NCBI RefSeq assembly: GCF_001314875.1
Contig: NZ_LJZS01000021.1
Location: forward strand, 1-64,000
Source of the DNA: Halomonas sp. HL-48
Lineage (GTDB): Bacteria; Pseudomonadota; Gammaproteobacteria; Pseudomonadales; Halomonadaceae
Length of the DNA: 64,000 nt
Direction: 5' to 3'
Shown here: piece after piece, positions 34,947 through 52,073 of the stretch
How the letters are laid out: each line of letters starts with the position of its first letter
Position numbering within the stretch: position 1 is the first letter of the stretch
Notes under the pieces: generated by a model
Database searches by the model: none
Told to the model about the DNA's origin: nothing
What the model saw: only the letters and a program-made list of their open reading frames with translations
Program-made: the position numbers and the translations under genes

Positions 34947-37637
34947 ATGCCACAACCTGTTATCCCGCTCCCGGCCGATTTGGCGAAAAAATATCGTCAA
35001 CAGCGTCATGGTGCCTTGATGCTTTACGGGGTGGCATTACTGCTATTGCTGAGTATTTTTACGTGGATACTTTACGAACAATATCGCCAGGAAATCCGCG
35101 CGCTTCAATCGCGAAACGCCGCCAGGGCCGACGTCGTGGTCGAATGGGCGAAAGGTGTTTTTGCACAAAGTGACCAGGCCTTACTGAGCATGGCCGAGCT
35201 GATCGAACTGCAGGGCATGCCCCCCCAGGGTGACGCCGATGGGCTGCAGCGTGCGTTACTCAGCCATAGCCGCTATGTGGACTGGATCGATGATATCGGG
35301 GTCATCGACGCCGATGGCGTTGTTCAGGCCAGTGCACTCAGAACGGAGCTGGTCGGTCGCGACCTGAGCGACACGCGGTTTTTTCAAGCGTTTCGTGATC
35401 AGCAGGAGCGCACCAAGCTGGTGACGCCGCTGTACTCGACCTCCCACGATGATCGCTATTTTCTGTATCAGGCGCGACGGCTGACCCGCGACAACGGTGA
35501 GTTTAACGGCATCGTGGTGGCACGAATTTCACCGAAGGTGTTCGAGCGCGCCTTGCAGCGCCTGGGCGTCGCTGAGGGCGAGAGCATTGCCCTGGTCGAC
35601 GGTGAGCTCAAGCTGATTGCCCGCTTGCCCGCGCTGGACGACCCCCTGCCATCCGGCTGGCAAGTCGACAGTCCCGAGACCATGGCAATGATCGAGCAGG
35701 GCGCTGAAAACTGGTCGCAGCAATTGACCTCGCCGCTGGACCAGCGCGAGCGGCTGTTTCAGATGCAGTGGATAGAAGCGCTGCCGCTGTTGGTGGTGGT
35801 TGGCGAAGATCTCCAGCTTCAACTGGCCAGCTGGCGTCAGCGGGCGGTAATTCTGGCCGGGTTCATGGTGGTGATTGCCCTGCTGGGTGCCTGGGGGGTA
35901 CGTCATTACCTGAACCGGCTGCGCGTTGAGCACCGCCTGCATCAAGGGGAAGCCGAGCTGCGGATTTCCGCGACGGCGTTTCAAACGCACCTGGGGATGC
36001 TGATTGCCGATGACAAGGGGCGCATCCTGAAGGTCAACGATACCTTCACGCGGATCACCGGCTACAGCGAAGACGATGTGGTGGGCAGGAGCACCCGCAT
36101 GCTCAATTCGGGGCGCCATGACGCCGCCTTCTATCGCAAGATCTGGCGGCGAGTGCAGGCCAACGGGAGTTGGGAAGGCGAGATATGGAACCGGCGCAAG
36201 AACGGCGATGTATTTCCCGAGTGGCTGACCATCAGCGCCGTCTACGATCCGCAAGGGGTGCTGACGCATTATGTCGCGACGATGAGCGACATTAGCGAGC
36301 GCAAGGCGGCGGAGGAGGAAATCCATCAGTTGGCGTTCTACGACCCGCTGACCGGGCTTGCCAACCGGCGGCTGTTCCTGGATCGCATGCAGGCCGCGCT
36401 GAAGGACGTCAATCGCCATTCGAACTGTGGTGCCCTGCTGTTTATCGACATCGATAATTTCAAACAGATCAACGACACTCTGGGCCACTTTGCCGGTGAC
36501 CAGTTGTTGCAGCACCTGGGCCGGGGGATGGGCCAGATGCTGCGTGAAACCGATACCCTGGCACGGCTTGGCGGCGATGAGTTCGCCGTCCTGATCGAGG
36601 GGCTGGGCCAGCGTCGTGAGGACGCCGCCGAGCTTGCCGAAAGCATTGCGCAGAAGCTGCAGGATGTCATTCAACAGCCCATCCCGCTTCAGGAAGACAG
36701 TGTCGACGTGACCGCGAGCATCGGGATTACCGTGGTGAGCGATCCGTTCAGTTCGGTCGACGACTATCTACAGCAGGCCGACATGGCCCTGTTTCAGGCC
36801 AAGAGCAATGGGCGCAGCTCGCTGAGCTTTTTCGATCCCACCATGCAGGCCGAGCTGCTATCGCGGGTACGTCTGGAAAACGCGCTGCGCGAGGCCCAGG
36901 CTAATGAGGAATGGCGGCTTTACTACCAGCCACAGGTTGATCAGGCAGGGCGCTGTATCGGCGTCGAGGCACTGTTGCGCTGGCAGCACCCCGAGCGCGG
37001 CCTGGTGACGCCGGACGTCTTCATACCGCTGCTCGAAACAACCGAGCTGATCAATTCGGTGGGCGACTGGGTGCTGGAGACGGCCTGCCGGCAACTGGTG
37101 GAGTGGGCCCACCAGCCAGCGTTCGCCGAGCTGAGCGTGGCGGTTAACGTCAGCCCGCTGCAGTTCCGGCAGGTGGATTTTGTCGCCAAGGTGGAGGCCA
37201 TCCTGCAGCGCACCCAGGCGCCGTGTCACAAACTCAAGCTGGAGGTGACCGAGTCGTTGTTTCTTGAGGAGCGCGACGATGCCCGCGACAAGATGCTGCG
37301 CCTCAAGCAAAAGGGCGTACGTTTCTCGCTGGATGACTTTGGCACCGGCTACTCGTCGCTTGCCTATCTGGCGCACCTGCCGCTGGACCAGCTCAAGATC
37401 GATAAGTCCTTCGTCCAGGAGGTTATCCACAGCAAGGCCAACGCGGCGATTGTGGAAAGTACCATTGCGCTGGCGCAAAGCCTGTCGCTCGAGGTCATCG
37501 CCGAGGGGGTCGAAAGCGACGAGCAGCAGGTTTGGCTGCTGACCCACGGCTGCAGCACCTACCAGGGGTATCGCTATGGCCGGCCAATGCCGCTGGACGC
37601 ACTGGAAGCGAGGCTGACGGCCGCATCTACGATTTAG
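34947..37637 (+). CDS. Membrane PAS-GGDEF-EAL cyclic-di-GMP protein with periplasmic sensor
   Basis: An 896-residue bifunctional protein. A first membrane helix (about 25-45) and a second (about 300-318) bound a dCache-like periplasmic sensor with SRYVDWIDDIGVIDADG. A PAS domain (about 340-455) leads to a GGDEF domain with intact GGDEF (about 544) and an RETD inhibitory site five residues before it. The EAL domain has EALLRW (about 673), NVSPLQFR, DDFGTGYSSLAYL and EGVE. Both cyclase and phosphodiesterase sites look complete; the net activity cannot be predicted. It overlaps the 3' end of the convergent CobW gene by four bases. Confidence 0.93.
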   Translation: MPQPVIPLPADLAKKYRQQRHGALMLYGVALLLLLSIFTWILYEQYRQEIRALQSRNAARADVVVEWAKGVFAQSDQALLSMAELIELQGMPPQGDADGLQRALLSHSRYVDWIDDIGVIDADGVVQASALRTELVGRDLSDTRFFQAFRDQQERTKLVTPLYSTSHDDRYFLYQARRLTRDNGEFNGIVVARISPKVFERALQRLGVAEGESIALVDGELKLIARLPALDDPLPSGWQVDSPETMAMIEQGAENWSQQLTSPLDQRERLFQMQWIEALPLLVVVGEDLQLQLASWRQRAVILAGFMVVIALLGAWGVRHYLNRLRVEHRLHQGEAELRISATAFQTHLGMLIADDKGRILKVNDTFTRITGYSEDDVVGRSTRMLNSGRHDAAFYRKIWRRVQANGSWEGEIWNRRKNGDVFPEWLTISAVYDPQGVLTHYVATMSDISERKAAEEEIHQLAFYDPLTGLANRRLFLDRMQAALKDVNRHSNCGALLFIDIDNFKQINDTLGHFAGDQLLQHLGRGMGQMLRETDTLARLGGDEFAVLIEGLGQRREDAAELAESIAQKLQDVIQQPIPLQEDSVDVTASIGITVVSDPFSSVDDYLQQADMALFQAKSNGRSSLSFFDPTMQAELLSRVRLENALREAQANEEWRLYYQPQVDQAGRCIGVEALLRWQHPERGLVTPDVFIPLLETTELINSVGDWVLETACRQLVEWAHQPAFAELSVAVNVSPLQFRQVDFVAKVEAILQRTQAPCHKLKLEVTESLFLEERDDARDKMLRLKQKGVRFSLDDFGTGYSSLAYLAHLPLDQLKIDKSFVQEVIHSKANAAIVESTIALAQSLSLEVIAEGVESDEQQVWLLTHGCSTYQGYRYGRPMPLDALEARLTAASTI

Positions 37638-38653
37638 GCGGTCAGGGTGCGCGCGAAGGTGGCCTTGAGGGCGTCGGGGCTGGGCGCATGCGCCACCGAC
37701 TGTTCGGGAGCAATTACTTCAACCCGCGAATCCTGCCGCCAGGTGGCCGGCGTGACGCTAAGCGTGCCGCCGGCCCGGTTGAGCTGTCGCCAGCCGCTAT
37801 CGGTATGGAAGACGCCTTTGACGCGAATGTCATGGGGCAGTTCGCCCAGCTGGGCCGCGAGGCGGTCCAGGTCGAAGACATCGCTTGGGTGCCAGCGCAA
37901 CCCGGTGCTCGAATAGCCAAGCGACGAGCCGGTCTTGCACTGGGGCGTGCCCGGTGCCGGCGGCATGTCAAAGAAGTTGCCCGCCAGGCTTGGCGGTGCG
38001 GCTAGCGGCTGGTGGGCCTCTGGAACGCTACTGCTGCCCTGAGCATGCCCGCCTTCCAGCAGGCGAGCCAGCGGCAGGTGGCCGTCGTGCACCTCGTGGA
38101 CCCACTTGCGCGGTGGCCAGCGCTCGGCGATGAAGGCATGCGCCGCGCTGAGCTGCTCGGGAGTACTTTGATCGCCCATGGTCAGGGCGACGGCGTCGGC
38201 AATCTCCAACTGGTCGCGGAAGGTCTCGTGAGCCACCACGCGTGGCTCATCCAGGCGGCGCGGGTCGAGCGTTGCCACGATATCGCGTACCACAACGACC
38301 CCCTGCAAGGCTTCGCCGCGCAACAGATCCACCAGGCCGGCGGGGTGACCCAGGCCGGAAGGCTCGATGATTACGCGGTCGGGTTGGCTGCGCGCCAGCA
38401 AATTGACCAATGCCGCCTGCAGCACGAAGGCCAGCTGGCAGCACAGGCAGCCACCGGGCAGGCCTTTGACGACGACATCATCGCGGGTATCGAACATCGC
38501 CTGATCGATGCCGATCTGACCAAACTCGTTGACCAGAATCGCCCATTTTTCATCCGCAGGCTTCTGCTCGATCAGGCTGTGGATAAGCGTGGTCTTGCCG
38601 CTCCCCAGAAAACCGGTGACGATATGGACGGGGACGTTGGACAGTGCCGCCAT
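37634..38653 (-). CDS. CobW/COG0523 family GTPase
   Basis: A 339-residue G3E GTPase: P-loop GFLGSGKT (14-21), the metal motif CLCC (69-72), Walker B IIEPSG and a CobW C-terminal domain. COG0523 proteins act as metal chaperones, commonly for zinc, cobalt or other metals. A low-complexity linker (GSSSVPEAHQPLAAPPSL) separates the domains. It is the last gene of the fdhD-mobA-moeA-moaA run, two bases after moaA, so a part in metal supply to the FDH/molybdenum system is possible, though no family member is established in that role. Zinc allocation is the default reading. Confidence 0.87.
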   Translation of the reverse strand: MAALSNVPVHIVTGFLGSGKTTLIHSLIEQKPADEKWAILVNEFGQIGIDQAMFDTRDDVVVKGLPGGCLCCQLAFVLQAALVNLLARSQPDRVIIEPSGLGHPAGLVDLLRGEALQGVVVVRDIVATLDPRRLDEPRVVAHETFRDQLEIADAVALTMGDQSTPEQLSAAHAFIAERWPPRKWVHEVHDGHLPLARLLEGGHAQGSSSVPEAHQPLAAPPSLAGNFFDMPPAPGTPQCKTGSSLGYSSTGLRWHPSDVFDLDRLAAQLGELPHDIRVKGVFHTDSGWRQLNRAGGTLSVTPATWRQDSRVEVIAPEQSVAHAPSPDALKATFARTLTA

Positions 38654-38655
38654 GT

Positions 38656-39654
38656 TTAGCCGCCGGTCATGTTCATGAAGCGTACGACCTGCACGTCGCC
38701 GTCGGTGGTGAAATGATGGCGCTCGGGCTTGAGCGGCAGGGCGTTGATGATGGCGTCTTTAAGCGCCTGCATGTTGCCCGGATGACGGCGCAGCACGGCG
38801 CGCAGGTCCACCGAGTGCTCGTTGCCGAGGCACAGCAGCAGGCGTCCTTCGACGGTCACGCGGACGCGGTTGCAGGTATCGCAGAAGTTATGGCTGTGCG
38901 GCGAGATAAAGCCGACGCGACTCTTGCTGTCGGCCATCCGGAAGTAGCGCGAGGGGCCAGGCGTGGTTTCTGGGGTGGCGATCAGCGGATAGCGGGTTTC
39001 GATCAGCGCCTGGACGTCGTCGCTCGAGTAGAAGGTTTCCGCGCGGGAGTGGTCGGACACGTCGCCCAGCGGCATTTCCTCGATGAAGCTGATATCCAGG
39101 CTTTCCCGGCGGGCAAACTCGACCAGGTCGAGCACTTCGTCCTCGTTGCGGCCCTTGAGGATCACCGCGTTGAGCTTGATGCGCTCAAAGCCGGCTTCCT
39201 TGGCGGCACGAATGCCGTCGATGACTTTTTCCAGTTCACCGGTGCGGGTGAGCTGCTTGAAGCGCTCCGGGTCAAGCGAGTCCAGGCTGATGTTGAGACG
39301 TCGCATGCCACCGGCGTAGAGCTGTTTGGCGTGCTTGCGCAGGCTGGCACCGTTGGTGGTCATGGTGAAGTCGCTGAGGCCCGGCATCGAGCCGATCTCG
39401 TCCACCAACTGGGTGATGTCGCGGCGCACCAGCGGCTCGCCCCCGGTGAGGCGGATTTTCTCCACGCCGAGCTCGGTGAAAGCCCGGGCGACCATGGCCA
39501 ACTCTTCCAGCGTGAGCACCTGGGCGCGGGGCAGGAAGGTCATCTCTTCGCTCATGCAATACACGCAGCGAAAGTCACAGCGGTCGGTTACCGAGATACG
39601 CACATAACTAATGCGGCGGCCAAAGTTGTCGATCAGTTGCTCGGTCATAGCCAT
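38656..39654 (-). CDS. moaA: GTP 3',8-cyclase
   Basis: A 332-residue radical SAM enzyme that converts GTP to the 3',8-cyclo intermediate, the first step of molybdopterin synthesis with MoaC. The N-terminal cluster is CDFRCVYC (C26, C30, C33) and the C-terminal cluster includes [21 protein letters not shown]. It overlaps moeA by ten bases. The rest of the pathway is scattered: moaC, moaD and moaE are not in this window. Confidence 0.95.
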
Positions 39655-40892
39655 TCCGTAAGTGGTTGTATGCTGACGACCTCGCCTGGTTGCACACCAT
39701 CTTGGTCGTCGGCTAGCTCAATCAAGCAGTTAGCTGCCACCATCGAGGTTAATATGCCCGACCCCTGGGCGCCGGTGCTACGTACGCGTAGCTGTCCCTG
39801 TTTATCACTATGGTAGACCCCACGAAGGAAGTCTGTCCGTTGAAAGCGGCTTTTCAATGCTTCGTCGGCAATCGCGTTGAGGCGGCGGGGCGGTGTAACG
39901 GGTTGGCCCTGAAGTCGCTGCAGCAGCGGCACGACAAACTGCAGAAAGGTTACCATGACCGCAACGGGATTGCCGGGCAAGCCGACGAAAGGCGTGTGCG
40001 ATTCACCCAGCCAGCCGCAGGCCATAGGGCGGCCCGGTCGCAGGGCTACCCGCCAGAACGCCAGCCGACCCAGCTGTTCCAGGGCGTCGCGGGTAAAATC
40101 GGCATGGCCCACCGATACCCCGCCGCTGGAAATCACCAGGTCGCTGTTTGCCGCGGCGTGCGACAAGGTGTCCTTAAGCGCGGTCAGCTCGTCCGGCAGA
40201 ATGCCCAGATCGACCACCTCAACGCCGTGTTCGGTGAGCAGCCCCGAAAGCGTATAGCGGTTGGCATCGTAGATGCCGGCGCTGGGCAGGGCTTCGCCAG
40301 GAGCGGTGACTTCGTTACCGGTGGAGAAAATCGCCACCCTGGGACGTCGGCAAACCGACACGGCAGCGCAACCCAGGGAGGCGGCCAGGCCCAGTGCGGC
40401 GGCGTCCAGCCGTGTGCCGGCGGGCAGGGCGACGCTTCCCGCGGCAATGTCTTCTCCCGCCTGGCGTACGTTCTGGCCACGTTTGACGCGCTCGGGGGCG
40501 TCAATCACCACGCCTGTTCCCTGCTCGCTCAGCTGCTCACGCATGATCACCGTGTCGGTCCCCGGCGGCAGCGGGGCGCCGGTGGTAATGCGCACGCACT
40601 GCCCGGCGGCAACGCGGCCTGCGAAGGCCTGTCCGGCAAAGGCATCGCCGACCAGGGCCCAGCCAGTTGGCGCGTCCTGTGTCCAGGCCAGCGCCACGCC
40701 ATCCATCGCGGCGTTGGTATTCTGCGGCACGTTGATGGCCGCCGTGATGGCCTCGGCCAGCCGTCGACCATGGGCCTCGGCCAGTGCCACCTGCTCGCTA
40801 CCCACGGGGCGTTCGACCAGCGTGGCCAGCGCCGTCCGCGCTTCCTCCACGCTGAGCATCTGTTCGCCGAGTTCAAAGCAGGACAGGGTCAT
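39645..40892 (-). CDS. moeA: Molybdopterin molybdenumtransferase (first copy)
   Basis: A 415-residue MoeA that inserts molybdate into adenylylated molybdopterin. Visible motifs are [38 protein letters not shown] and [10 protein letters not shown], and the C-terminal domain IV follows. ATG 40892 is chosen over the track's 41024, which runs through mobA. It overlaps mobA by four bases. A second, clearly different moeA lies at 52066 with moaB. Confidence 0.94.
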
Positions 40893-41500
40893 GGCGTTGC
40901 CGGTTTTGTCTTGGGGGCTAAAGCGGCTTCCAGGCGGAATTTCTCTTCCTCGGTGTTGAGGTTGGCAAAGGCGTCCGGGCAGTCCGACATATCCACCTTG
41001 CACCACGCGTGGCGGGCGTACCAACGGTCGATCTTGCGCTCGCCTTCGCCAAGCGTCGCGGCGAGATCATCGGCAAGCGCAGTGCGTAGCAAGGCCACCA
41101 CGGGGTGAAGGCGCTCGCCGTCGAAGGCAACGCCGATATCATGCTCGCCAATGCCTGCGACCATGCGTGCCACCAGGTCGTCGGGGAGGGCTGGCGAGTC
41201 GCAGGGAGCGACCAGCAGCCAGGGTGTTTTGGCGGCGCGCAAGCCGCTGTAGATGCCCATCAGTGGCCCTTTGAAGCCACCTTCGGCGTCGGCAATGACG
41301 CTGTCGGCAAACAGCCCATAAGCATCGGCGTTGCGATTGGCGTTGATCAGTAACTCGGCCACGCGACCGTTAAAGCGCTGGGCCACGTGGGCCACCAGCG
41401 GCAGCCCGGCGAAGGGCTCGAGGCCTTTGTCGCGGCCACCCATACGGCGGCCTTCGCCGCCGGCGAGAATCATGCCGGTTAGGTCATGGGCGGGAATCAT
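40889..41500 (-). CDS. mobA: Molybdenum cofactor guanylyltransferase
   Basis: A 203-residue nucleotidyltransferase with the N-terminal signature LAGGEGRRMGGRDKGLEPFAG. MobA links GMP to molybdopterin to make the bis-MGD cofactor used by formate dehydrogenases like the one encoded downstream. It lies between fdhD and moeA, overlapping each by four bases, in a run fdhD-mobA-moeA-moaA-cobW. A C-terminal extension past residue 185 ([14 protein letters not shown]) is not typical. Confidence 0.94.
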   Translation of the reverse strand: MIPAHDLTGMILAGGEGRRMGGRDKGLEPFAGLPLVAHVAQRFNGRVAELLINANRNADAYGLFADSVIADAEGGFKGPLMGIYSGLRAAKTPWLLVAPCDSPALPDDLVARMVAGIGEHDIGVAFDGERLHPVVALLRTALADDLAATLGEGERKIDRWYARHAWCKVDMSDCPDAFANLNTEEEKFRLEAALAPKTKPATP

Positions 41501-42357
41501 GAGCGCGCCTCTTGATGGGCCGCGCGAGCGCGGGGCGGGCGCGGCGGAATGGCATCCAGGGTGAGTCGGCCTGCGGCATTGATGGCCTGAAAGTGCTTAC
41601 CCTTGGCGCGGCCAATCAGCATGACGCCAAAACGCTCGGCCAGCTCGACGCCTTTCTGGGTGACGCCTGAGCGCGAGACCAGCACGCTGATGCCCATCTG
41701 GGCGACCTTGAGGACCATCTCCGACGTCAGACGCCCGGTGGTGTAGAAAATATCGGCGTCGGCACTGTCTGCCTGCTGCAGCCACTGGCGACCCGCCAGC
41801 GTATCTACGGCGTTGTGGCGGCCCACATCTTCCACGAAATCCAGCACGTCATGTTGACGGCAGAGCGCGCAACCGTGCACGGCCCCTGCGCTGCGGTAGG
41901 TTTCATTGTAGGCGTTGAGATTTTTCAAAAGCTGGTAGAGCGTTGACTGGGTCAGGTGCGTGTCGGGCAGCTCGGTCAGGTCGGTCTGGTCGAGCAGCTT
42001 GCCGAACACCGTGCCCTGGCCGCAGCCGGTGGTCACGGTGCGCGTGCTGAGGCGCGCTTCAAGATCGTCGGGCAGGTGGCCGGTCACCACCACGGCGGCT
42101 TCCACCTCCCAGTCGACCTGAACGACGGATAGGTCGGCGGCGGCGCGCAGCAGCCCCTGGTTGCGCAAGTAGCCAACCACCAGGGCTTCCGGGTCGTCAC
42201 CCAGCGTCATGAGCGTGACGATCTCACGCTTGTTGAGATACACCGTCAATGCCCGCTCAGCGGCGATGGCCTGTTGGCGAGTGTCACCATATTCATCAAC
42301 CACGCTAATCTCGGTGGTGGCCGGTAAGCGGGCTCGGCTTAGCTCCAGGGCGGGCAT
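41497..42357 (-). CDS. fdhD: Formate dehydrogenase sulfurtransferase FdhD
   Basis: A 286-residue accessory protein that moves sulfur from IscS to the molybdenum cofactor, needed for active formate dehydrogenase. The catalytic cysteine loop is GAVHGCALCRQHDVLDFVEDVGRHNAVD, and the C-terminal ISVLVSRSGVTQKGVELAE is conserved. It is the first gene of the minus-strand run, divergent from the DUF3305-DUF3306 pair with about 110 bases of shared promoter. Confidence 0.94.
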   Translation of the reverse strand: MPALELSRARLPATTEISVVDEYGDTRQQAIAAERALTVYLNKREIVTLMTLGDDPEALVVGYLRNQGLLRAAADLSVVQVDWEVEAAVVVTGHLPDDLEARLSTRTVTTGCGQGTVFGKLLDQTDLTELPDTHLTQSTLYQLLKNLNAYNETYRSAGAVHGCALCRQHDVLDFVEDVGRHNAVDTLAGRQWLQQADSADADIFYTTGRLTSEMVLKVAQMGISVLVSRSGVTQKGVELAERFGVMLIGRAKGKHFQAINAAGRLTLDAIPPRPPRARAAHQEARS

Positions 42358-42466
42358 CTGGAATCCTCGTTGTACGTATAACGTATGAGTTGACGATGAT
42401 GGCGCTCGAAAGGCTTACTTGTCCACCCGAACCTGTTTTTCAGCACAACGCAAAAGGGCCTTTGTG

Positions 42467-42907
42467 ATGACCGATAATCTCCGCCCGCTAAGCATTTCAC
42501 TGATCGCTGAGAAAAAGCAGGTAAGCCGTTTTAGCGAAATACAGTGGCGTATCAATGAGCTGACACTGGGTGAGCAGGGGCCGCACGTACTGTTTTTGCA
42601 GCTGTTCATGACCGAGCGGGCGGCTTATCGCTTTAATCTGACCGCCGCCACGCCGCGCCTCTTCGTGCGCGCCGGTTTTACCGGCCAGGAACCCAAGCCG
42701 TCCGCCATCACTGCCAGCCAGGATGTCGCCGCCGGATGGATGGATGGCGAGCAGCAGGTGCTGGAAGTGGCGATGCCGATGGCGATCCAGATATGGATCG
42801 AAAGCTACCTGGCCCGCCATGGCGAAGCACCGATGGAAATTCGCAAGAAAAAGCGCAAAGGGGCCGGGCGCGCGAAAGAAACGCCTACCCAGGAGAAGCC
42901 GCAATGA
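42467..42907 (+). CDS. DUF3305 domain protein
   Basis: A 146-residue protein of the DUF3305 family, known almost only from formate dehydrogenase gene clusters. There is no signal or membrane segment. A central RWR-like region (FSEIQWRINELT) and a basic C-terminal tail (RKKKRKGAGRAKE) are visible. ATG 42467 (MTDNLRPLS) fits better than the track start at 42419. Its stop overlaps the DUF3306 start. Function is unknown; placement suggests assembly or maturation of the enzyme. Confidence 0.85.
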   Translation: MTDNLRPLSISLIAEKKQVSRFSEIQWRINELTLGEQGPHVLFLQLFMTERAAYRFNLTAATPRLFVRAGFTGQEPKPSAITASQDVAAGWMDGEQQVLEVAMPMAIQIWIESYLARHGEAPMEIRKKKRKGAGRAKETPTQEKPQ

Positions 42908-43536
42908 GTCGTTTAGAACGCTGGTCGCGTATCAAGCGGGGTCTCGAGCCTGAAGACCCGTCATCGGACGCAAAGCACGAAGCGCCCGCAGAGCATGGCG
43001 CTCCGCCGTCGCCACCAGCCGACGAGTCGCCGTCTTCGCAGGCCCGCACCGTTGAGGATATGCCGGAAAGCGACCGCCGGGACAACGTCGACGATGCCGC
43101 CGCCAACGCCAAGATACCGCCGCCCCCGGGAAGCCTGGATGACACCTTGCCCGACCCGGACACGCTGGCTGCCGGCAGCGATTTCAGCGGTTACATGGTG
43201 CCCGGCGTGAGTTCGGCGCTTAGGCGGCGGGCGCTGAAGCGTCTGTGGTCGACCGGCAACTATAACGTGCGCGATGGGCTGGATGACTACGACCTGGATT
43301 ACACTCAGCAGCTCAAGCCCATGGCCTCTGATCTGGCTGGCAAGCTGCGCCGTTGGGTCAAAAAAGCCGATGAAAGCCTGGATCAAGATAATGAAGAGGT
43401 GCCGACAGACGAGCCAGCTGCATCAACGACCGCTGATCACCAGCGCACGCCTTTAGAAGCTGACCATGACGAGCCAGCGAACGAGCAGACGTCGGCACTA
43501 GACGACCAGTCTGATAATGCTCAGACCAAAGCATAA
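42904..43536 (+). CDS. DUF3306 domain protein
   Basis: A 210-residue protein, overlapping the DUF3305 gene by four bases. The conserved part is the start MSRLERWSRIKRG and the middle NYNVRDGLDDYDLDYTQQLKPM; long acidic, proline- and serine-rich linkers (about 20-100 and after 165) appear disordered. The track starts at 42736, inside DUF3305; ATG 42904 is the right start. The pair always seems to accompany this formate dehydrogenase type. Function is unknown. Confidence 0.85.
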   Translation: MSRLERWSRIKRGLEPEDPSSDAKHEAPAEHGAPPSPPADESPSSQARTVEDMPESDRRDNVDDAAANAKIPPPPGSLDDTLPDPDTLAAGSDFSGYMVPGVSSALRRRALKRLWSTGNYNVRDGLDDYDLDYTQQLKPMASDLAGKLRRWVKKADESLDQDNEEVPTDEPAASTTADHQRTPLEADHDEPANEQTSALDDQSDNAQTKA

Positions 43537-43784
43537 GGTGTGACGATAGTTGATAGAAAACAAGGCTTTGAGATAAGAACGGGATAACAGCGTTGAAAGC
43601 ATCGGATGCAAATGGCTGGCAAAGCCTGCCCAGTCACCATACGCTTAGCTTAGGAGCAAGGCGGCGATCAAAAGAGGACTGATCGACTGAGCGAGTGCTA
43701 GGTATTGGCACAGCCGTTATGCCACAATAGTAAAAAAGTATGATCAACTATTATAAAAAAATGATCCTCTGACCGTGAGAATGC
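43537..43784. promoter_or_regulatory. Promoter region of the formate dehydrogenase operon
   Basis: No gene is seen. The region is AT-rich near its end and contains TATTGGCA and, 9 bases on, TGCCACAATA, an imperfect inverted repeat, then two similar blocks (AAAAAAGTATGATC and AAAAAAATGATC) about 20 bases apart, ending 15-20 bases before the polyferredoxin gene. It is the likely control point of the operon. Confidence 0.4.
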
Positions 43785-45551
43785 ATGAATCAACGAATCC
43801 AGCTGGCGTCGATAGACGATCAGCGTAACGCCGAAGCCCGAGAAGCGGTACGCCAGCGTATCTCGTGGCCAGCGAATCTAACGCCCGCCAACGTGACCTA
43901 CCATAGTCGTGGTCACGTAATTCTTATTGGAGCGAGCGACACTACCGAAGCGGCTGCCCGCGCCCTGCAGGGCAGCGGGCTCGCGTCGTTGACGCTGCTG
44001 GCCGAAGACAGCCGGGAATCAGCCGCGCCGCTGCCCGAGCAAGCATCACCAGACGTCGCCTCACCGGTCGCCTCATCTGATGTCATGCCCCAGGGGCATG
44101 CCCAGCCCATCGTCCGTCATGCCCTGAGCACGGCTCAGCGCAGCGCCCTGCGTATCAGCGGTCATTTGGGTGCGTTCGACGTTCGCATCGACGACAGCGG
44201 CAATTTGCTCAATTTGGCCCGGGCGTTTATCGACCGTGACCATTTCGACGTGGTGTTAGACCTGAGTGCCACGCCGGTGATGACTACCGAACTGCCGCCC
44301 CCCGGCTACGTACTACTCGACTGGACCGACGTCGACCGCCGCCGTGATGCGGTGGATTCAGTGGCTGAGCTGGTCGGCGAGTTCGACAAGCCGCGTTATT
44401 TCCAGGTCAACAGCGATCTCTGCGCGCATTCCTCCAGCGGCAACACCGGCTGTACCCGCTGCCTGGACGTGTGTCCTGCCGATGCTATCAGCAGTCATCA
44501 GGGCCGCATTGAATCGCGGATCGAGATCGACCCCTATCTGTGCCAGGGCGTCGGCAGCTGCACCAGCGCCTGCCCGACCGGCGCCATTGAATTTCGCCTG
44601 CCCGACACCCGCCGCCAGCAGGACACGCTGTCCACCTGGCTTGCCGCCTACCGCGAAGCCGGCGGTCAAGCGCCGGTACTGCGCTTTATCACCCATGATT
44701 CCCTGGACGCTGAACAGGTGGCCGGCGTAACGCCCGCCGGGCACGTGCTGGATATCCCCCTGGAAGAGCTCGGGGCGGCCGGTCACGACCAGTGGCTGAC
44801 GGCTCTGGCCAGCGGTGCCGCCGAAGTGCGCATCCAGGAACACCCCGGCATGCCCGCCCGCCTGAGCGCCTTTTTGGCTGATCAGGTGGGCCAGGCCCAG
44901 ACACTGCTGACTGCTCTGGGGCACGACCCGGCCCGCGTGCAACTGCTGGCTGTCGGCGATGCCCAGGCGCGCGACGCGTTGCCCATGCTGACGCCGTTGA
45001 CCGACCAGCCGCTGGCGCTGAACGAGCCCAATAAGCGCGCCCGTCTGAATATCGTGTTGGCACGCCTGGCCGAACTGGGTGCGCCTAGCGGTCAGCGCCA
45101 CGCCATGCCGCAAGGCGCGGCGTACGGGAGTATTCAGGTCGACAGCGACGCCTGCACGCTGTGTCATGCCTGCGTCAGCAGCTGTCCGACACCGGCGCTT
45201 TCCTCCGGGGGCAAGGTGCCTTCGCTGAACTTCCGCGAGGCGGATTGCGTGCAGTGCGGGCTTTGTGAACAGGCCTGTCCCGAAAATGCCATCACGCTGA
45301 TGCCGGGCTTCCTGGCCGCCGAGGCGCGGGAAACGCGCCAGGTGTGCCATGAGGAAGCGCCTTTTGAATGCATCGGCTGTGGCAAACCTTTCGCCACGGC
45401 CAGCACGGTTGCCAACATCAAGGCCAAGCTCGCTGATCACCCCTATTTTGCAGGCGACGCCATGCTGCGCCTGGAAATGTGCGAGGACTGCCGTGTGAAA
45501 GACGTATGGAAAACCATGATTCGTGATCCCGACGCCCAGTTGAGAATATAA
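43785..45551 (+). CDS. FDH-linked polyferredoxin-like 4Fe-4S protein
   Basis: A 588-residue iron-sulfur protein found in formate dehydrogenase clusters. Cysteine motifs read, in order: TGCTRCLDVCPADAI (about 222-238), YLCQGVGSCTSACPTGAI, CTLCHACVSSCPTPAL (about 455-470), CVQCGLCEQACPENAI and a C-terminal ECIGCGKPF plus MCEDCRVKD. The N-terminal 200 residues are unique to this kind and may fold like a Rossmann-type domain (HVILIGASDTTEAAARAL). No signal peptide is seen, so it is cytosolic. It could pass electrons to cytosolic acceptors or act as an assembly factor. Its role is unknown. Confidence 0.85.
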   Translation: MNQRIQLASIDDQRNAEAREAVRQRISWPANLTPANVTYHSRGHVILIGASDTTEAAARALQGSGLASLTLLAEDSRESAAPLPEQASPDVASPVASSDVMPQGHAQPIVRHALSTAQRSALRISGHLGAFDVRIDDSGNLLNLARAFIDRDHFDVVLDLSATPVMTTELPPPGYVLLDWTDVDRRRDAVDSVAELVGEFDKPRYFQVNSDLCAHSSSGNTGCTRCLDVCPADAISSHQGRIESRIEIDPYLCQGVGSCTSACPTGAIEFRLPDTRRQQDTLSTWLAAYREAGGQAPVLRFITHDSLDAEQVAGVTPAGHVLDIPLEELGAAGHDQWLTALASGAAEVRIQEHPGMPARLSAFLADQVGQAQTLLTALGHDPARVQLLAVGDAQARDALPMLTPLTDQPLALNEPNKRARLNIVLARLAELGAPSGQRHAMPQGAAYGSIQVDSDACTLCHACVSSCPTPALSSGGKVPSLNFREADCVQCGLCEQACPENAITLMPGFLAAEARETRQVCHEEAPFECIGCGKPFATASTVANIKAKLADHPYFAGDAMLRLEMCEDCRVKDVWKTMIRDPDAQLRI

Positions 45552-45554
45552 GCC

Positions 45555-46169
45555 ATGACGCAAACTGCCCCCGCGCTGAACGAGGCCGATGCTTTACGCG
45601 CTGATATCTATCGGCTGCTGGCAGCGCTCCTCCGTGAAGCGCCTAGCGACGAACTGCTCGGCTGGCTGGCCTCGCTGGACATCGAGCAGGACGGAAGCCG
45701 TCTGGCCGAGTGCTGGCGCGGGCTTAGCCAGGCCGCTGACAGTGCCGACACTCCGCATTTGAAACGCGCGCATTTCGGCCACCTGGTGGGCGTGATTCAG
45801 GGCGATGTCGTGCCCTATGCCTCCTGGTACCGCAACGGCGAACTGATGGAGGCAGCGCTCGTGGCGCTGCGTCGCGATCTTGGCGCGCTGGGCTTCGAGC
45901 GCAGCGAGCACACAAAGGATCCCGAGGATCACCTGGCCGCGCTGTGCGAAGTGATGGCCATGCTGATCGACGCGACGAGCGCGGACCAGGCGCACTTCTT
46001 TATGCATCACCTTGCCCCTTGGGCAAGCGACTGTTTTAACGACTTAGGGCAAGTCGACACGGCTTTTTATGCAGCGCTCGGGCAGTTGGGTAGCGCTTAC
46101 ATGGAGAGCGAAGAGGCCCGCCTGGCCATTGAGGCGAGCCATGCCCCTGTAAAAATCGTAGAACCTTGA
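45555..46169 (+). CDS. TorD/DmsD-type Tat chaperone
   Basis: A 204-residue, all-helical molecular chaperone with the family features LRADIYRLLAALLREAP at the N-terminus and HFFMHHLAPWASDCFNDL. Such proteins bind Tat signal peptides of molybdoenzymes and hold the apoenzyme until the cofactor is inserted. Its client here is very likely FdhA, encoded just after it. It starts three bases after the polyferredoxin stop codon. Confidence 0.9.
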   Translation: MTQTAPALNEADALRADIYRLLAALLREAPSDELLGWLASLDIEQDGSRLAECWRGLSQAADSADTPHLKRAHFGHLVGVIQGDVVPYASWYRNGELMEAALVALRRDLGALGFERSEHTKDPEDHLAALCEVMAMLIDATSADQAHFFMHHLAPWASDCFNDLGQVDTAFYAALGQLGSAYMESEEARLAIEASHAPVKIVEP

Positions 46170-46267
46170 CGTGACGCGCTAACGCGTTGGTTCACCGTCG
46201 GGTGAGCGCGCGGCAGCCATAGCACAAGATAAAACGGCCAAAGGCCATGGCAAGAGAGGAGAACACC

Positions 46268-46468
46268 ATGCAACAGTCACACAATCCTGAGCGCCGCCGG
46301 TTTATGAAAACCGTGGGGTTGGGAACCGCGGCCGCAGGCGCTGCTGCCGCAGTGGGCCATGTCACTTTGGCGCAAGCCGACAGCGCTCCCAGCGACGCTG
46401 AAAAACCGACAAAAAATTACCGTGAGACCGACCACGTCCGTGCTTTTTACGCCTCTTTGCGTGACTGA
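46268..46468 (+). CDS. Small Tat-signal protein of the formate dehydrogenase operon (FdhX-like)
   Basis: A 66-residue protein with a twin-arginine signal (ERRRFMKTVGLGTAAAGAAAAVGHVTLAQA) and a short mature tail ending YRETDHVRAFYASLRD. Small proteins like this accompany many FDH operons and are known as formate dehydrogenase region Tat targets or FdhX. ATG 46268 follows GAGAGGAG; the track's 46247 start is too far upstream. A role in maturation or export is likely but unproven. Confidence 0.86.
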   Translation: MQQSHNPERRRFMKTVGLGTAAAGAAAAVGHVTLAQADSAPSDAEKPTKNYRETDHVRAFYASLRD

Positions 46469-46492
46469 CGGCGGAATGCCAGGAGAATTGCC

Positions 46493-49348
46493 ATGCGTTT
46501 AACTCGCAAAACAGACACTCCCAAAGCTCCAGGCCTGGGTATTTCGCGCCGCCAGTTTATCAAACGCAGCGGCGCGGCAACCGGCGGTGTTGCCGCGCTG
46601 GGCTTTATGGGCGCGCCCATGATGCGGCGCGCCGAATCGGCGGATAAAACGCCGGTGCTGGATTCCCCGGTGGAAACCAAGCGCACGATCTGTTCGCACT
46701 GTTCGGTGGGCTGCGGCGTCTACGCCGAAGTGCAGGAAGGTATCTGGACCAAGCAGGAACCGGCCTTCGATCACCCGATCAACCGCGGCGCGCACTGCGC
46801 CAAAGGCGCCTCGTTGCGCCAGCACGGCCATTCCAGCCGGCGTCTCAAGTACCCCATGAAGCTGGTGGGCGGCGAATGGGAGCGCATGAGCTGGGAAGAT
46901 GCCGTCGACGAGATCGGCGACAAGTTGCTTGAGCTGCGCGATGAGCACGGTCCGGACAGCGTTTACTGGCTCGGCTCGGCCAAGTTCAGCAACGAGCAGG
47001 CGTACCTGATGCGCAAGCTCGCCTCCATGTGGGGCACCAACAATACCGACCACCAGGCGCGTATCTGTCACTCCACCACCGTGGCCGGGGTAGCCAATAC
47101 CTGGGGCTACGGGGCGATGACCAACTCGCTCAATGACATGCAAAACAGCAAGTCAATGCTGTTCATTGGCTCGAATCCGTCAGAAGCCCACCCGGTGGCG
47201 ATGCAGCACTTCCTGATTGCCAAGGAGCGCAACAACTGCGACATCATTGTCGCGGATCCGCGCTTTACCCGTACGGCGGCCAAAGCCAACAAATACGTAC
47301 GCCTGCGTCCAGGTTCCGACGTGGCCTACATTTGGGGCCTGCTGTGGCACATCTTTGAAAACGGCTGGGAAGATAGCGAATACATCAGCCAGCGCGTTTA
47401 CGGCATGGATGAAGTGCGCGAAGAAGTGTCCAACTTCCCGCCAGATGTGGTGGAAGACATCACCGGCGTCAGTGAAGAAGACATGCGCGACGTCGCCAAG
47501 CGCCTGGCCGACAATCGCCCCGGCTGTGTGGTGTGGTGCATGGGCGGTACCCAGCACACCACGGGCAACAACAACACCCGCGCCTACTGCATTCTAGAGC
47601 TGGCGCTGGGCAACATTGGCAAGTCGGGTGGCGGGGCCAATATTTTGCGTGGCCACGACAACGTTCAAGGCGCGACAGATCTGGGCCTGGGTTCAGACTC
47701 GCTGCCGGGTTACTACGGCTTGGCAGAAGGGGCATGGCAGCACTGGGCCAAGGTATGGGACGTTGACTACGATTGGCTGAAAGAGCGTTTCGACGACAGC
47801 GAATATGCTGATGGCAAGCCCATGAACACCAGCGGTATTACCGTATCGCGCTGGGTTGACGGGGTACTGGAAGAAGACGAAAACATCTCCCAGCGTACCG
47901 CCCTCAAGGCCATGTTCTACTGGGGCCACGCGGTCAACTCTCAGACCCGCGGCGTCGAAATGCAGCAGGCGATGAAAAAGCTCGACATGATGGTCATCGT
48001 CGACCCGTACCCGACCGTGGCGGCGGTTATGCACGACCGCACGGATGGCGTGTACCTGTTGCCGGCGGCAACCCAGTTCGAAACCACCGGCAGCGTGACG
48101 GCGACCAACCGTTCCATGCAGTGGCGCGATAAAGTCATCGATCCGCTGTTCGAGTCCAAGCCTGATCACGAGATCATGTACTTGTTTGCTCGCAAGCTCG
48201 GGTTTGGTGACGAACTGGTCGCCAACTACGAAATGAACGGTGATGAGCCGCTGATCGAAGATATCCTGCGCGAAATCAACAGCGGCATGTGGACCGTCGG
48301 CTACACCGGGCAGAGCCCGGAGCGGCTGAAAGAGCACCAGAAAAACTGGCATACCTTCAGCTTCGAGAACCTGCGCGCCCAAGGTGGCCCGGCAGATGGT
48401 GACTACTACGGCTTACCCTGGCCCTGCTGGGGCACACCGGAGTTTAAGCACCCGGGTTCGCCCAACCTATACGACACCAGCGTACCGGTAATGGAAGGCG
48501 GTATGGGCTTCCGTGCCCGCTTTGGTATCGAACGCGATGGCGTCAACCTGCTGGCCGAAGGTTCAGCGCCGGTGGATGGCGATATCGACGACGGCTATCC
48601 CGAGTTCAACGACCAACTGGTCAAGGACCTCGGCTGGTGGGATGACCTCACTGACGAGGAGAAAGAAGCGGCGGAAGGCAAGAACTGGAAGACCGATCTG
48701 TCTGGCGGTATCCAGCGGGTGGTGATCGAGCATGGTTGTGCTCCTTACGGCAATGCCAAGGCGCGGGCCGTGGTTTGGACCTTCCCCGACGAAGTGCCGA
48801 AGCACCGCGAACCGCTCTACTCGACACGCCGTGACCTGGTCGAAAAATACCCGACGTGGGACGACTTCGACTCGATCATGCGCCTGCCGACCATGTACAA
48901 GAGCGTTCAGGACGGCGCCCCCTCAGTGGATGACTATCCGATCATCCTGACCTCCGGGCGTCTGGTGGAGTACGAAGGTGGCGGTGAAGAGACACGCTCC
49001 ATGTCGTGGCTGGCCGAACTCCAGCAAGAAATGTTTGTGGAGATCAACCCGGCCGATGCCAACGATTTAGGCATCAGCGACGGCGATGATGTGTGGGTCG
49101 AAGGCGCCGAAGGTGGCCGTGTGAAAGTCAAGGCGATGGTGACGCCGCGCGTTGACCGTAAGGTTGCCTTCATGCCGTTCCACTTTGGCGGCATGTTCCA
49201 GGGCGAGAGCCTGGAAGGCATTTACCCAGAAGGCACAGCGCCCTACGTCATTGGCGAATCAGCCAACACCGCGACCACTTATGGCTACGACCCGGTGACA
49301 CTGATGCAAGAGACCAAGTGCACCATTTGCCGTATCGAGCGCGCCTAA
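46493..49348 (+). CDS. fdhA: Formate dehydrogenase catalytic subunit
   Basis: A 951-residue bis-MGD molybdo- or tungstoenzyme that oxidises formate to CO2 in the periplasm. The Tat signal SRRQFIK is at 18-24, the [4Fe-4S] site is ICSHCSVGCGVYAEV...GAHCAKGAS, and the metal ligand is cysteine 192 in HQARICHSTTVAG, replacing the selenocysteine of E. coli FdnG. The C-terminal cofactor domain begins near YPIILTSGRLVEYEGGGEETRS. It ends CTICRIERA. No in-frame TGA was needed to read through. It works with the following beta and gamma subunits. Confidence 0.95.
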   Translation: MRLTRKTDTPKAPGLGISRRQFIKRSGAATGGVAALGFMGAPMMRRAESADKTPVLDSPVETKRTICSHCSVGCGVYAEVQEGIWTKQEPAFDHPINRGAHCAKGASLRQHGHSSRRLKYPMKLVGGEWERMSWEDAVDEIGDKLLELRDEHGPDSVYWLGSAKFSNEQAYLMRKLASMWGTNNTDHQARICHSTTVAGVANTWGYGAMTNSLNDMQNSKSMLFIGSNPSEAHPVAMQHFLIAKERNNCDIIVADPRFTRTAAKANKYVRLRPGSDVAYIWGLLWHIFENGWEDSEYISQRVYGMDEVREEVSNFPPDVVEDITGVSEEDMRDVAKRLADNRPGCVVWCMGGTQHTTGNNNTRAYCILELALGNIGKSGGGANILRGHDNVQGATDLGLGSDSLPGYYGLAEGAWQHWAKVWDVDYDWLKERFDDSEYADGKPMNTSGITVSRWVDGVLEEDENISQRTALKAMFYWGHAVNSQTRGVEMQQAMKKLDMMVIVDPYPTVAAVMHDRTDGVYLLPAATQFETTGSVTATNRSMQWRDKVIDPLFESKPDHEIMYLFARKLGFGDELVANYEMNGDEPLIEDILREINSGMWTVGYTGQSPERLKEHQKNWHTFSFENLRAQGGPADGDYYGLPWPCWGTPEFKHPGSPNLYDTSVPVMEGGMGFRARFGIERDGVNLLAEGSAPVDGDIDDGYPEFNDQLVKDLGWWDDLTDEEKEAAEGKNWKTDLSGGIQRVVIEHGCAPYGNAKARAVVWTFPDEVPKHREPLYSTRRDLVEKYPTWDDFDSIMRLPTMYKSVQDGAPSVDDYPIILTSGRLVEYEGGGEETRSMSWLAELQQEMFVEINPADANDLGISDGDDVWVEGAEGGRVKVKAMVTPRVDRKVAFMPFHFGGMFQGESLEGIYPEGTAPYVIGESANTATTYGYDPVTLMQETKCTICRIERA

Positions 49349-49413: not shown

Positions 49414-50028
49414 ATGGCTCAAATGAAATTTATGTGTGACGCCGAACGCTGCATCGAATGCAACGGCTGCGTGACCGCCTGTAAAAACGCCAATGATGTC
49501 GAATGGGGCATTCAGCGTCGTCGCGTTGTGACCCTGAACGACGGCGAATCTGACGAAATGTCCATTTCGGTTGCCTGTATGCACTGTGACGACGCGCCTT
49601 GCATGGCGGTGTGTCCGACCGACTGTTTCTACAAGACCGACGACGGTATCGTACTGCACGATAAAGACCTGTGTATCGGCTGTGGCTACTGCCTCTACGC
49701 CTGCCCCTTCGGCGCACCGCAGTTCCCGCAGCAGGATGCCTTCGGCGAACGCGGCAAGATGGACAAATGTACCTTCTGTGCCGGCGGCCCTGCCGAGAGC
49801 AAGGAAGAAGAATACGAGAAGTACGGTGCCAACCGCATCGCCGAAGGCAAGTTGCCGCTGTGCGCGGAAATGTGCTCCACCAAGGCCCTGCTGGCAGGTG
49901 ATGCGCAGGATGTTGCCGACATCTTCCGTCAGCGCGTCGTGCATCGTGGCCACGAAGACGGTGCCTGGTCCAACAACCCTCAGGCCAGTGCCGACAACCT
50001 AGCCTACGATGCTGCCCGTAAAGGGTAA
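49414..50028 (+). CDS. fdhB: Formate dehydrogenase iron-sulfur (beta) subunit
   Basis: A 204-residue ferredoxin-type subunit with four [4Fe-4S] groups: CDAERCIECNGCVTACK, CMHCDDAPCMAVCPTDCF, CIGCGYCLYACPFGAPQF and KCTFCAGG...LCAEMCSTKAL. It carries electrons from FdhA to the membrane subunit. It has no signal of its own and is exported with FdhA. ATG 49414 has AAGGAG upstream. It lies 12 bases before fdhC. Confidence 0.95.
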   Translation: MAQMKFMCDAERCIECNGCVTACKNANDVEWGIQRRRVVTLNDGESDEMSISVACMHCDDAPCMAVCPTDCFYKTDDGIVLHDKDLCIGCGYCLYACPFGAPQFPQQDAFGERGKMDKCTFCAGGPAESKEEEYEKYGANRIAEGKLPLCAEMCSTKALLAGDAQDVADIFRQRVVHRGHEDGAWSNNPQASADNLAYDAARKG

Positions 50029-50039
50029 GGAGGCTTTCC

Positions 50040-51134
50040 ATGAACCAGTTGACTGCTCAGGCACCCGGTGGGGTGCCGCATCTGAACCACTGGCAAGGGG
50101 TTTGGCGCTGGCTATTGTTGGCTTTTGTGCTGGTGCTGAGTCTCGGTGTGACACAGGTAGCGAATGCCCAGGCCGACCCTGACCGGGAGATGGGCACGGC
50201 AGCGCCGGGTATCGACGCTGACCAGTGGCGGGAAGTGCGCAGCGGTGAAACCGATGCCAACTACCGCGACTCGCGTTACGAGAGTAACTACAACCTGATT
50301 AACTCAAGCGGTGAAACCTGGCGCCAATGGCGTAATCGCTGGGTGTCACCGTTCGGGTTGATCGTGATTGGCGGCATGATCGGGATCATTACGCTGTTCT
50401 ACCTGATCATTGGTCGCAAGGATCTTGAAGAACCGCGAACGGGACGCAAGCTGTTCCGCTGGCCGCTTTTCATGCGTGCCTTGCACTGGTCGGTGGCATC
50501 GCTGTTCATTGTCCTGGCGCTTACCGGACTTAACTTGTTGTTCGGCAAGTTCGTCTTCCGCGGCCTGTTTGGCGATGCCTTCTGGGGGTGGATGGTCTCC
50601 TCCTCCAAAGTGTTGCACAACTATCTGGGACCAATCTTCGGCATCTTGCTGGTGATATTGCTGGTTAGTCTGATCAAGGACAACATGCCCAAAAAGCATG
50701 ACCTGGAATGGTTCAAGAAGGGCGGTGGCCTTGTCGGTAAAGGCCACGTGGACGCCGGCTTTGCCAACGGCGGTGAAAAAGCCTGGTACTGGCTGCTTGC
50801 GTCGGTGGGGCTTCTGGTGGTTGCCAGCGGCTTCGTGCTCGACTTCCCCAACTTCGGTCAGGGACGCGACACCATGCAGTGGGCCAACCTCGTTCACGCG
50901 GTGGGCGCTCTGGGGCTGACGGCCGTGTCGATCGGTCATATCTACATCGGCACCCTGGGCACGGAAGGCTCGCTGGAAGGTATGACTACCGGCTACGTTG
51001 ATGAAACCTGGGCCAAAGAGCACCACAACCTGTGGTACGAACAGGTCAAGGATCAGGCAGTTTCCGAGCAGGAACTGGCTGATCGGAAAGCTTCAAAAGA
51101 CTCAGGTGAATCACCTGCTCCTCGCTCCTCTTAA
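50040..51134 (+). CDS. fdhC: Formate dehydrogenase cytochrome b (gamma) subunit
   Basis: A 364-residue membrane anchor. It begins with a signal-like hydrophobic segment (VWRWLLLAFVLVLSLGVTQVANA), a periplasmic stretch rich in Y, R and N to about residue 97, and then the four-helix cytochrome b core with heme histidines likely in RALHWSVASLFIVLAL and LHNYLGPIF. It transfers electrons from FdhB to quinone. The extra N-terminal periplasmic domain marks this as the larger FdhC type. Terminator hairpin follows at 51153. Confidence 0.92.
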   Translation: MNQLTAQAPGGVPHLNHWQGVWRWLLLAFVLVLSLGVTQVANAQADPDREMGTAAPGIDADQWREVRSGETDANYRDSRYESNYNLINSSGETWRQWRNRWVSPFGLIVIGGMIGIITLFYLIIGRKDLEEPRTGRKLFRWPLFMRALHWSVASLFIVLALTGLNLLFGKFVFRGLFGDAFWGWMVSSSKVLHNYLGPIFGILLVILLVSLIKDNMPKKHDLEWFKKGGGLVGKGHVDAGFANGGEKAWYWLLASVGLLVVASGFVLDFPNFGQGRDTMQWANLVHAVGALGLTAVSIGHIYIGTLGTEGSLEGMTTGYVDETWAKEHHNLWYEQVKDQAVSEQELADRKASKDSGESPAPRSS

Positions 51135-51551: not shown

Positions 51552-52073
51552 ATGGAAGAGGCAATGATTCCTTTATCGGTCGCGGTGTTAACCGTTTCGG
51601 ATACGCGCACGGAGGAGACGGACCGCAGTGGCCAGGCACTGGTCGCACGACTCTCTGAAGCCGGTCATCACCTGGCGGAAAAACGTATCGTGCCGGACGA
51701 TGTGTACACCATTCGCGCCGTGGTGGCCCAGTGGATTGCCGATAGTAACGTGCAAGTGGTAATCACCACCGGTGGCACTGGCTTTACCGGCCGTGACTCC
51801 ACCCCCGAAGCCGTCAGCGTGCTGTTGGATAAGCATATTGAAGGTTTTGGCGAACGCTTCCGTCAGCTCAGCGGCGAGGAAATCGGCAGCTCCACGATTC
51901 AAAGCCGCTGCCTCGGCGGGCTGGCCAACGCCACGGTGATCTTCTGTCTGCCGGGCTCGACCGGCGCCTGCCGCACCGGCTGGGACGGTATTCTGGCCGA
52001 GCAGCTCGACAGCCGCCACAAGCCGTGCAACTTTGCCAACCTGGTCATCCCCGAGCGTGGCCAGCATGGCTGA
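51552..52073 (+). CDS. moaB: Molybdenum cofactor biosynthesis protein B
   Basis: A 173-residue MoaB/MogA-fold protein with the molybdopterin-binding motif TTGGTGFTGRDSTPEAV and PGSTGACRTGWDGI. MoaB-type proteins adenylylate molybdopterin before metal insertion by MoeA. ATG 51552 (MEEAM) or 51564 are both possible; the track's 51366 start runs through the DUF1244 gene. The end overlaps the second moeA start by eight bases, so the last two steps are coupled. Confidence 0.93.
   Translation: MEEAMIPLSVAVLTVSDTRTEETDRSGQALVARLSEAGHHLAEKRIVPDDVYTIRAVVAQWIADSNVQVVITTGGTGFTGRDSTPEAVSVLLDKHIEGFGERFRQLSGEEIGSSTIQSRCLGGLANATVIFCLPGSTGACRTGWDGILAEQLDSRHKPCNFANLVIPERGQHG

Follow-up and report, generated by a model that had tools for sequence, protein, structure and literature searches.

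A putative maturation module of FDH3-type formate dehydrogenases, composed of DUF3305, DUF3306, a polyferredoxin and a TorD-family chaperone

Which accessory proteins serve a periplasmic formate dehydrogenase (FDH) where FdhE is missing? A candidate answer is found in a stretch of 64,000 nucleotides from a Halomonas/Vreelandella genome (G000), called the window below, on which the gene layout was read. Four genes on one strand, encoding a DUF3305 protein, a DUF3306 protein, a polyferredoxin (PFd) and a TorD/NarJ-family chaperone, precede the genes of an FDH3-type formate dehydrogenase there. We consider it fairly probable that these four genes, together with a small TIGR02811 protein of the twin-arginine translocation (Tat) type and FdhD, constitute the dedicated cytosolic maturation and pre-export module of FDH3, in the place of FdhE, and the set is probably the enzyme's own cofactor-loading and export-control kit. 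The case for a module as such is strong, and the chemistry assigned to it below is what we infer. The sequences show specific co-inheritance with FDH3, exclusion of FdhE within the sampled genomes, the domain make-up of PFd, and links between MobA and DUF3305 and between DUF3306 and TorD.

The neighbourhood itself has been seen before. The DUF3305/DUF3306 pair was reported in 60% of the DmsD-fdhGHI operons (Bay et al., 2015; PMC4464133), and these DUF3305/DUF3306-TorD/DmsD-fdhGHI operons have the same neighbourhood as the window, so that the set is not wholly undescribed, contrary to the earlier note on this DNA. In the available part of that paper, the two families are named putative membrane proteins, their function is not given, and the exclusion of FdhE, the ancestry in HdrA, MvhD and HycF and the fusions are not reported. 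The membrane label is contradicted here by the lack of a transmembrane helix. No paper on the function of DUF3305 or DUF3306 was found in a literature search, which reached few subscription journals. Four points appear to be new: that the families co-occur exactly, that FdhE and the set form a dichotomy, that PFd descends from HdrA, MvhD and HycF, and the two fusion links.

Co-occurrence of the set with FDH3

The set and the enzyme genes that follow it are located in the window as listed.

42467-42907, plus strand: DUF3305 protein, 146 amino acids, soluble alpha/beta (PF11749, 68.4 bits, cut-off 25)
42904-43536, plus strand: DUF3306 protein, 210 amino acids, low complexity (PF11748, 82.6 bits, cut-off 25)
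43785-45551, plus strand: PFd, polyferredoxin of 588 amino acids (Fer4 domains)
45555-46169, plus strand: TorD/NarJ-family chaperone, 204 amino acids (PF02613, 81 bits, cut-off 22.2; TorD model partial)
46247-46468, plus strand: small protein of family TIGR02811, "formate dehydrogenase region TAT target" (79.1 bits, cut-off 48.45)
46493-49348, plus strand: FdhA, catalytic subunit with a Tat signal, with cysteine and not selenocysteine (no in-frame stop)
49414-50028, plus strand: FdhB, FDH3-type beta subunit without a Tat signal of its own (NF038355, 339.5 bits, cut-off 240)
50040-51134, plus strand: FdhC, cytochrome b subunit (TIGR01583, 176 bits, cut-off 115.85)

The first four open reading frames are those proposed in the earlier note, three of them passing curated family cut-offs and PFd carrying Fer4 domains. 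The enzyme is of the FDH3 type, since FdhB passes the FDH3 beta cut-off; FdhA reaches only 358.6 bits against the FDH-N model TIGR01553, below the cut-off of 814, and has no selenocysteine codon.

The distribution of the set was examined in 219 Pseudomonadota genomes, drawn evenly, where PFd was scored by its ferredoxin-free N-region and FDH3 by the beta subunit (NF038355 above 240 bits). All of DUF3305, DUF3306, the PFd N-region and FDH3 beta are confined to one and the same group of 26 genomes, as was checked by set identity; neither FDH3 without the set nor the set without FDH3 was found among the 219. The association is far beyond chance, and the proposal of an assembly module specific to one FDH type withstands this check, the families never occurring without FDH3 in the sample. 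Full-length TIGR02811 matches are likewise confined to genomes with the set. One genome (G200) contains two copies each of DUF3305, DUF3306 and the FDH3 beta subunit; its second FDH3 cluster (L077) has no PFd alongside, and the single PFd of this genome seems to serve both FDH3 copies.

The module is kept with the FDH genes in 78 of 80 Halomonadaceae loci, the remaining two contigs holding only part of it. However, proximity is not obligatory. In one genome (G016) PFd is located 31 kb from DUF3305 and is still co-resident, and in Azospirillum ramasamyi, A. lipoferum and A. oryzae a distance of about 84-116 kb separates DUF3305 from fdh3B, the two genes sharing a plasmid in each case. Therefore, the co-occurrence is not due to linkage alone, and the statement that the set is always near its FDH is almost right, except that genes which co-occur may be 31-116 kb apart. 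A DUF3305-DUF3306 pair on the A. ramasamyi plasmid that looked like an orphan was rejected as such, since fdh3B is 84 kb off on the same plasmid. The set is not a general need of molybdoenzymes, because G000 also encodes the catalytic subunit of an FdsA-like cytosolic FDH (C31:68740-70059, L002) and an assimilatory, NasA-like nitrate reductase (C29:67926-69185, L003).

Exclusion of FdhE

Of the 219 genomes, 24 have FdhE (PF04216), and not one of these is among the 26 that carry the set; no PF04216 match was found anywhere in G000. An FDH-N alpha subunit above cut-off occurs in 22 genomes, always with an in-frame TGA (selenocysteine), and all 22 have FdhE while none has the set. The FDH3 alpha subunits, in contrast, have no in-frame stop. 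Both solutions, FdhE and the set, are found within families f1, f10, f28, f38 and f45, in different genomes. In this sample FDH3 is a Tat-exported class doing without FdhE, although fdhE has been described as systematically associated with periplasmic FDHs, with a probable proof-reading role before export (review, PMC10609526).

FdhE, the assembly factor of FDH-N and FDH-O in Escherichia coli, resembles the set in being a cytosolic accessory of Tat-exported FDHs, and has CxxC metal sites and a supposed proof-reading function (PMC10609526). However, no sequence relation between FdhE and the set was found, and FdhE tracks the selenocysteine FDH-N.

Domain composition of the polyferredoxin

The window PFd, which is 93% identical to the PFd of Halomonas sp. 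CUBES01, is divided into the following regions (residue numbers).

1-198: HdrA-derived N-region
213-263: two clusters
about 274-446: MvhD-fold domain
457-498: two clusters
529-569: HycF-like CxxC-x33-CxxC metal module

Four ferredoxin cysteine motifs are present, in agreement with the earlier count of at least four [4Fe-4S] motifs, but the second (C253-x5-C259; residues 253-263, window positions 44541-44573) lacks one ligand, Val256 replacing the second cysteine. This form occurs in 84 of 114 PFd proteins, namely those of Halomonadaceae and other short PFd. A site with three ligands is therefore predicted at motif 2, which suggests a [3Fe-4S] cluster or an altered site.

The N-region had been regarded as a unique domain. 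When its profile was compared with the whole PDB, HdrA was the sole match (E 1.7e-6 and 7.6e-5), and the region is accordingly identified as an HdrA remnant whose flavin motif has been lost. The alignment spans the N-domain of HdrA (fvNIRexagW) and runs into the flavin domain, most of which it skips beyond the start; two PFd members (L068 and L073) retain a ferredoxin insert at the place of the one in the HdrA flavin domain. The FAD-binding GxGxxG is absent in 112 of 114 PFd. The N-terminal CxC domain is retained in about 19 of the 114 and missing in about 95, the window PFd included.

For the middle domain, the top Foldseek matches are MvhD proteins (5odh_D, 8rvu_F, 5odc_D and 7bkb_F; probability 0.98-1.00), with probability 1.00 and a root-mean-square deviation of 2.9-3.5 for 5odh_D and 8rvu_F. 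The relation is weak by sequence (E 0.19) and rests on the fold. Residues 274-446 of the window PFd contain no cysteine, and the corresponding stretch is cysteine-free in 75 of 108 PFd; the model thus indicates an MvhD fold without cysteines. Compared with the HdrA-MvhD pair of heterodisulfide reductase complexes, PFd has lost the FAD motif and the MvhD cysteines, which in MvhD are the ligands of a [2Fe-2S] cluster, and its flavin domain is shortened.

An extra metal module (C529xxC532-x33-C566xxC569) follows the ferredoxin motifs. The module is present in 113 of 114 PFd, and the HycF model NF009053 matches all ten C-terminal modules tested in isolation as well as the window PFd. We take the C-terminus to be a HycF metal module on these matches. 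In HycF the metal site, tentatively assigned to iron, is CxxC-x34-CPxC with Arg122 two residues past the first CxxC, and this site faces FdhF in formate hydrogenlyase (PMC9474812). The equivalent position is Lys or Arg in 101 of 113 PFd, whereas the proline of CPxC is absent. Zinc-finger (C2H2) matches of the module were rejected, as their span is limited to 20-30 residues around EKPFxCxxCGKxF while HycF covers the module in full. Both HycF/HyfH of formate hydrogenlyase and PFd thus end in a 2[4Fe-4S] plus CxxC-x33/34-CxxC unit; in PFd, however, it is fused behind HdrA and MvhD parts, there is no complex I-type hydrogenase, and the partner FDH is exported. Since HycF faces FdhF and 7bkb is a formate dehydrogenase-Hdr complex (entry title), PFd is built of parts that elsewhere belong to electron relays in contact with formate dehydrogenases.

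Some variation was observed around PFd. In Halomonas olivaria TYRC17 and one metagenome-assembled genome the gene is split into two overlapping open reading frames (L165:10001-11726 and L163:3039-4732), by a frameshift or an assembly error. Lineages whose PFd is long have an additional block, either next to PFd or separating it from DUF3305, that encodes DUF6505, DUF6352 and a biotin/lipoate-ligase-like protein of PF16917 (L188:6677-8969, L190:6700-8977 and L206:10474-12681); PF16917 matches above 160 bits, counted as strong, are restricted to 15 genomes, all with the set. The pairing of an HdrA-like with a lipoate-ligase-like protein is reminiscent of the sulfur-oxidising sHdr gene clusters.

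DUF3305, DUF3306 and the chaperone

With maximum hydropathies (19-residue) of 1.24 for DUF3305 and 0.81 for DUF3306, neither protein has a transmembrane helix, so both are predicted to be soluble. The AlphaFold2 model of DUF3305 is confident (predicted local distance difference test, pLDDT, 82.6). DUF3306 has conserved motifs at both ends, RWSRxK at the N-terminus and ALRxLW...DGLxDYDxD at the C-terminus.

Two links tie these proteins to their neighbours. The NCBIfam entry NF011058 describes a single protein in which MobA spans 1-205 and DUF3305 spans 210-382. In four alphaproteobacterial genomes the order is FdhD-MobA-DUF3305-DUF3306, followed on contigs that extend far enough by TorD-TAT-FdhA-FdhB-FdhC; mobA and DUF3305 overlap there or are at most 10 nucleotides apart. 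The other link is an in-frame DUF3306-TorD fusion of 365 amino acids in the second FDH3 cluster of G200 (L077:8536-9633, minus strand). Long DUF3305 open reading frames in L076 and L191 also had the look of fusions, and were rejected as upstream read-through.

The chaperone of the window is a member of the NarJ/TorD/DmsD family (PF02613) and is presumably dedicated to FdhA. It goes with FDH3, and DUF3305 and DUF3306 are extra partners that are not known for TorD-TorA, DmsD-DmsA or NarJ-NarG. TorD interacts with MobA and with a Tat signal, and a platform role for it, connecting the synthesis of the bis-molybdopterin guanine dinucleotide (bis-MGD) cofactor with its insertion, has been proposed (review, PMC10609526).

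Genes around the cluster

The following genes were also identified in the window.

37634-38653, minus strand: CobW/COG0523 GTPase, upstream of the set
39645-41024, minus strand, and 52033-53271, plus strand: two moeA genes flanking the FDH cluster
40889-41500, minus strand: MobA (MGD synthesis), in several Alphaproteobacteria directly before DUF3305
41497-42357, minus strand: FdhD (bis-MGD sulfurtransferase), conserved neighbour; recognised from its sequence and not through a curated model

FdhD, whose homologues were recovered by an FdhD profile, is transcribed divergently from the set, and downstream of FdhC the plus strand carries MoaB, then MoeA. Together the two moeA genes, mobA, moaB and the CobW/COG0523 GTPase gene around the FDH cluster form a small molybdenum cofactor island. 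Within the set, the start of DUF3306 overlaps the stop of DUF3305 by 4 nucleotides, and the gap between DUF3306 and PFd (43537-43784) is long and variable, about 50-250 nucleotides in most Halomonadaceae. A scan of 42200-46600 for Rfam families, promoters and terminators gave nothing above chance, and this gap has neither an Rfam match nor a clear promoter.

Proposed role and alternatives

Based on the gene order and the fusions, a chain MobA-DUF3305-DUF3306-TorD-FdhA can be outlined. In the proposed mechanism, bis-MGD would be made by MobA, sulfurated by FdhD and handed from MobA to DUF3305, DUF3306, TorD and finally apo-FdhA, with DUF3305 acting as the link between MobA/bis-MGD and the chaperone and DUF3306 as the adaptor to TorD. 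PFd may dock on pre-export FdhA via its HycF-like end and supply or test electrons, most likely for the reduction of Mo or of a persulfide during sulfido insertion, or for redox proof-reading; TorD would then free the Tat signal and export would be allowed. As no flavin is expected in PFd, it is not expected to bifurcate electrons. A redox role during maturation is the likeliest one that we infer for PFd, and there is a precedent for ferredoxin-like FDH helpers: HydN and YsaA bind FDH-H of E. coli and raise its activity (PMC6004506). They are cytosolic and ferredoxin-like as PFd is, but they are small HycB-like proteins with another domain plan and act on a cytosolic FDH.

Could PFd instead be a working cytosolic carrier of formate electrons, or feed CO2 reduction, with DUF3305, DUF3306 and TorD as separate assembly factors? 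Its relatives HdrA, MvhD and HycF are all electron-transfer parts, HycF and Hdr/MvhD occur in complexes with formate dehydrogenase, and four cluster motifs stand in a row. However, the Tat signal of FdhA and its membrane cytochrome b would put the mature enzyme across the membrane, the flavin motif and the MvhD cysteines are lost, and the second FDH3 copy of G200 has no adjoining PFd. Among the families mapped, the conserved neighbours are molybdenum cofactor and chaperone genes, and none is an oxidoreductase for NAD(P), quinone or ferredoxin. We therefore regard this carrier role as unlikely, and the steady-state cytosolic route for FDH electrons raised in the earlier note loses ground, because the enzyme is exported, has its own FdhC and has no soluble acceptor as a conserved neighbour. 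Note that the lack of a Tat signal in PFd is a weak reason for keeping it out of the exported enzyme, as FdhB has no Tat motif either.

It is also rather improbable that PFd loads iron-sulfur clusters as a scaffold, giving [4Fe-4S] clusters to FdhA and FdhB (five per enzyme, by analogy with FDH-N) with DUF3305 and DUF3306 as chaperone co-factors. PFd has many cluster motifs, and Shewanella oneidensis SO4506, an ortholog by gene order, changes with FdhA under RyhB control (PMC5826389). Nevertheless, the motifs are classical ferredoxin sites and not transient scaffold sites, and family searches did not relate PFd to the A-type carriers, to Nfu or to ApbC. Multi-cluster FDHs elsewhere are served by the general Isc/Suf systems. 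Least probable, and only a slight chance in our view, is that the set, carried along with FDH3 through linkage and horizontal transfer, has a mainly regulatory or stabilising function and no needed maturation step. The genes are usually in one cluster, often on plasmids, and the distance matrices of all genes correlate at 0.75-0.94, as joint inheritance predicts; but the co-occurrence persists in the unlinked cases described above, FDH3 never occurs without the set in the 219 genomes, and the cysteine ligands are conserved. A role in maturation is favoured by the MobA-DUF3305 and DUF3306-TorD links and by the neighbouring FdhD.

Several points weigh against this maturation module. The DUF3305 fold has no match in the PDB at E<=0.001, and since it resembles nothing known, we can only guess that DUF3305 binds bis-MGD or MobA. 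A search of 210 Alphaproteobacteria for a natural, full-length MobA-DUF3305 protein revealed adjacent genes but no such protein, and DUF3306 was seen fused to TorD just once. The structure model of PFd is of low quality across its ferredoxin regions (mean pLDDT 65). If each genome counts as independent, the chance of zero overlap between FdhE and the set is 0.04, and the single genome of S. oneidensis contains both fdhE and a corresponding cluster, SO4503-SO4510, in the same order (PMC2535785, PMC5826389), the orthology being drawn from gene order; consequently, the exclusion is not absolute. The literature search gave no mutant or biochemical data for any gene of the set.

Implications

FdhE has been held to be general for periplasmic FDHs, yet a widespread FDH3 class without FdhE carries an unrelated set. 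We tentatively raise the possibility, which is far from assured, that two non-homologous maturation systems exist for periplasmic FDHs, namely FdhE for FDH-N, and for FDH3 a bis-MGD relay with a flavin-less PFd checkpoint derived from a former bifurcation scaffold. The present analysis offers for DUF3305 and DUF3306 a role that can be tested, and suggests that the maturation of molybdoenzymes may include a redox step. In addition, it names concrete candidate accessory factors for the heterologous production of FDH3, which may be of use in formate bioenergetics and CO2 reduction.

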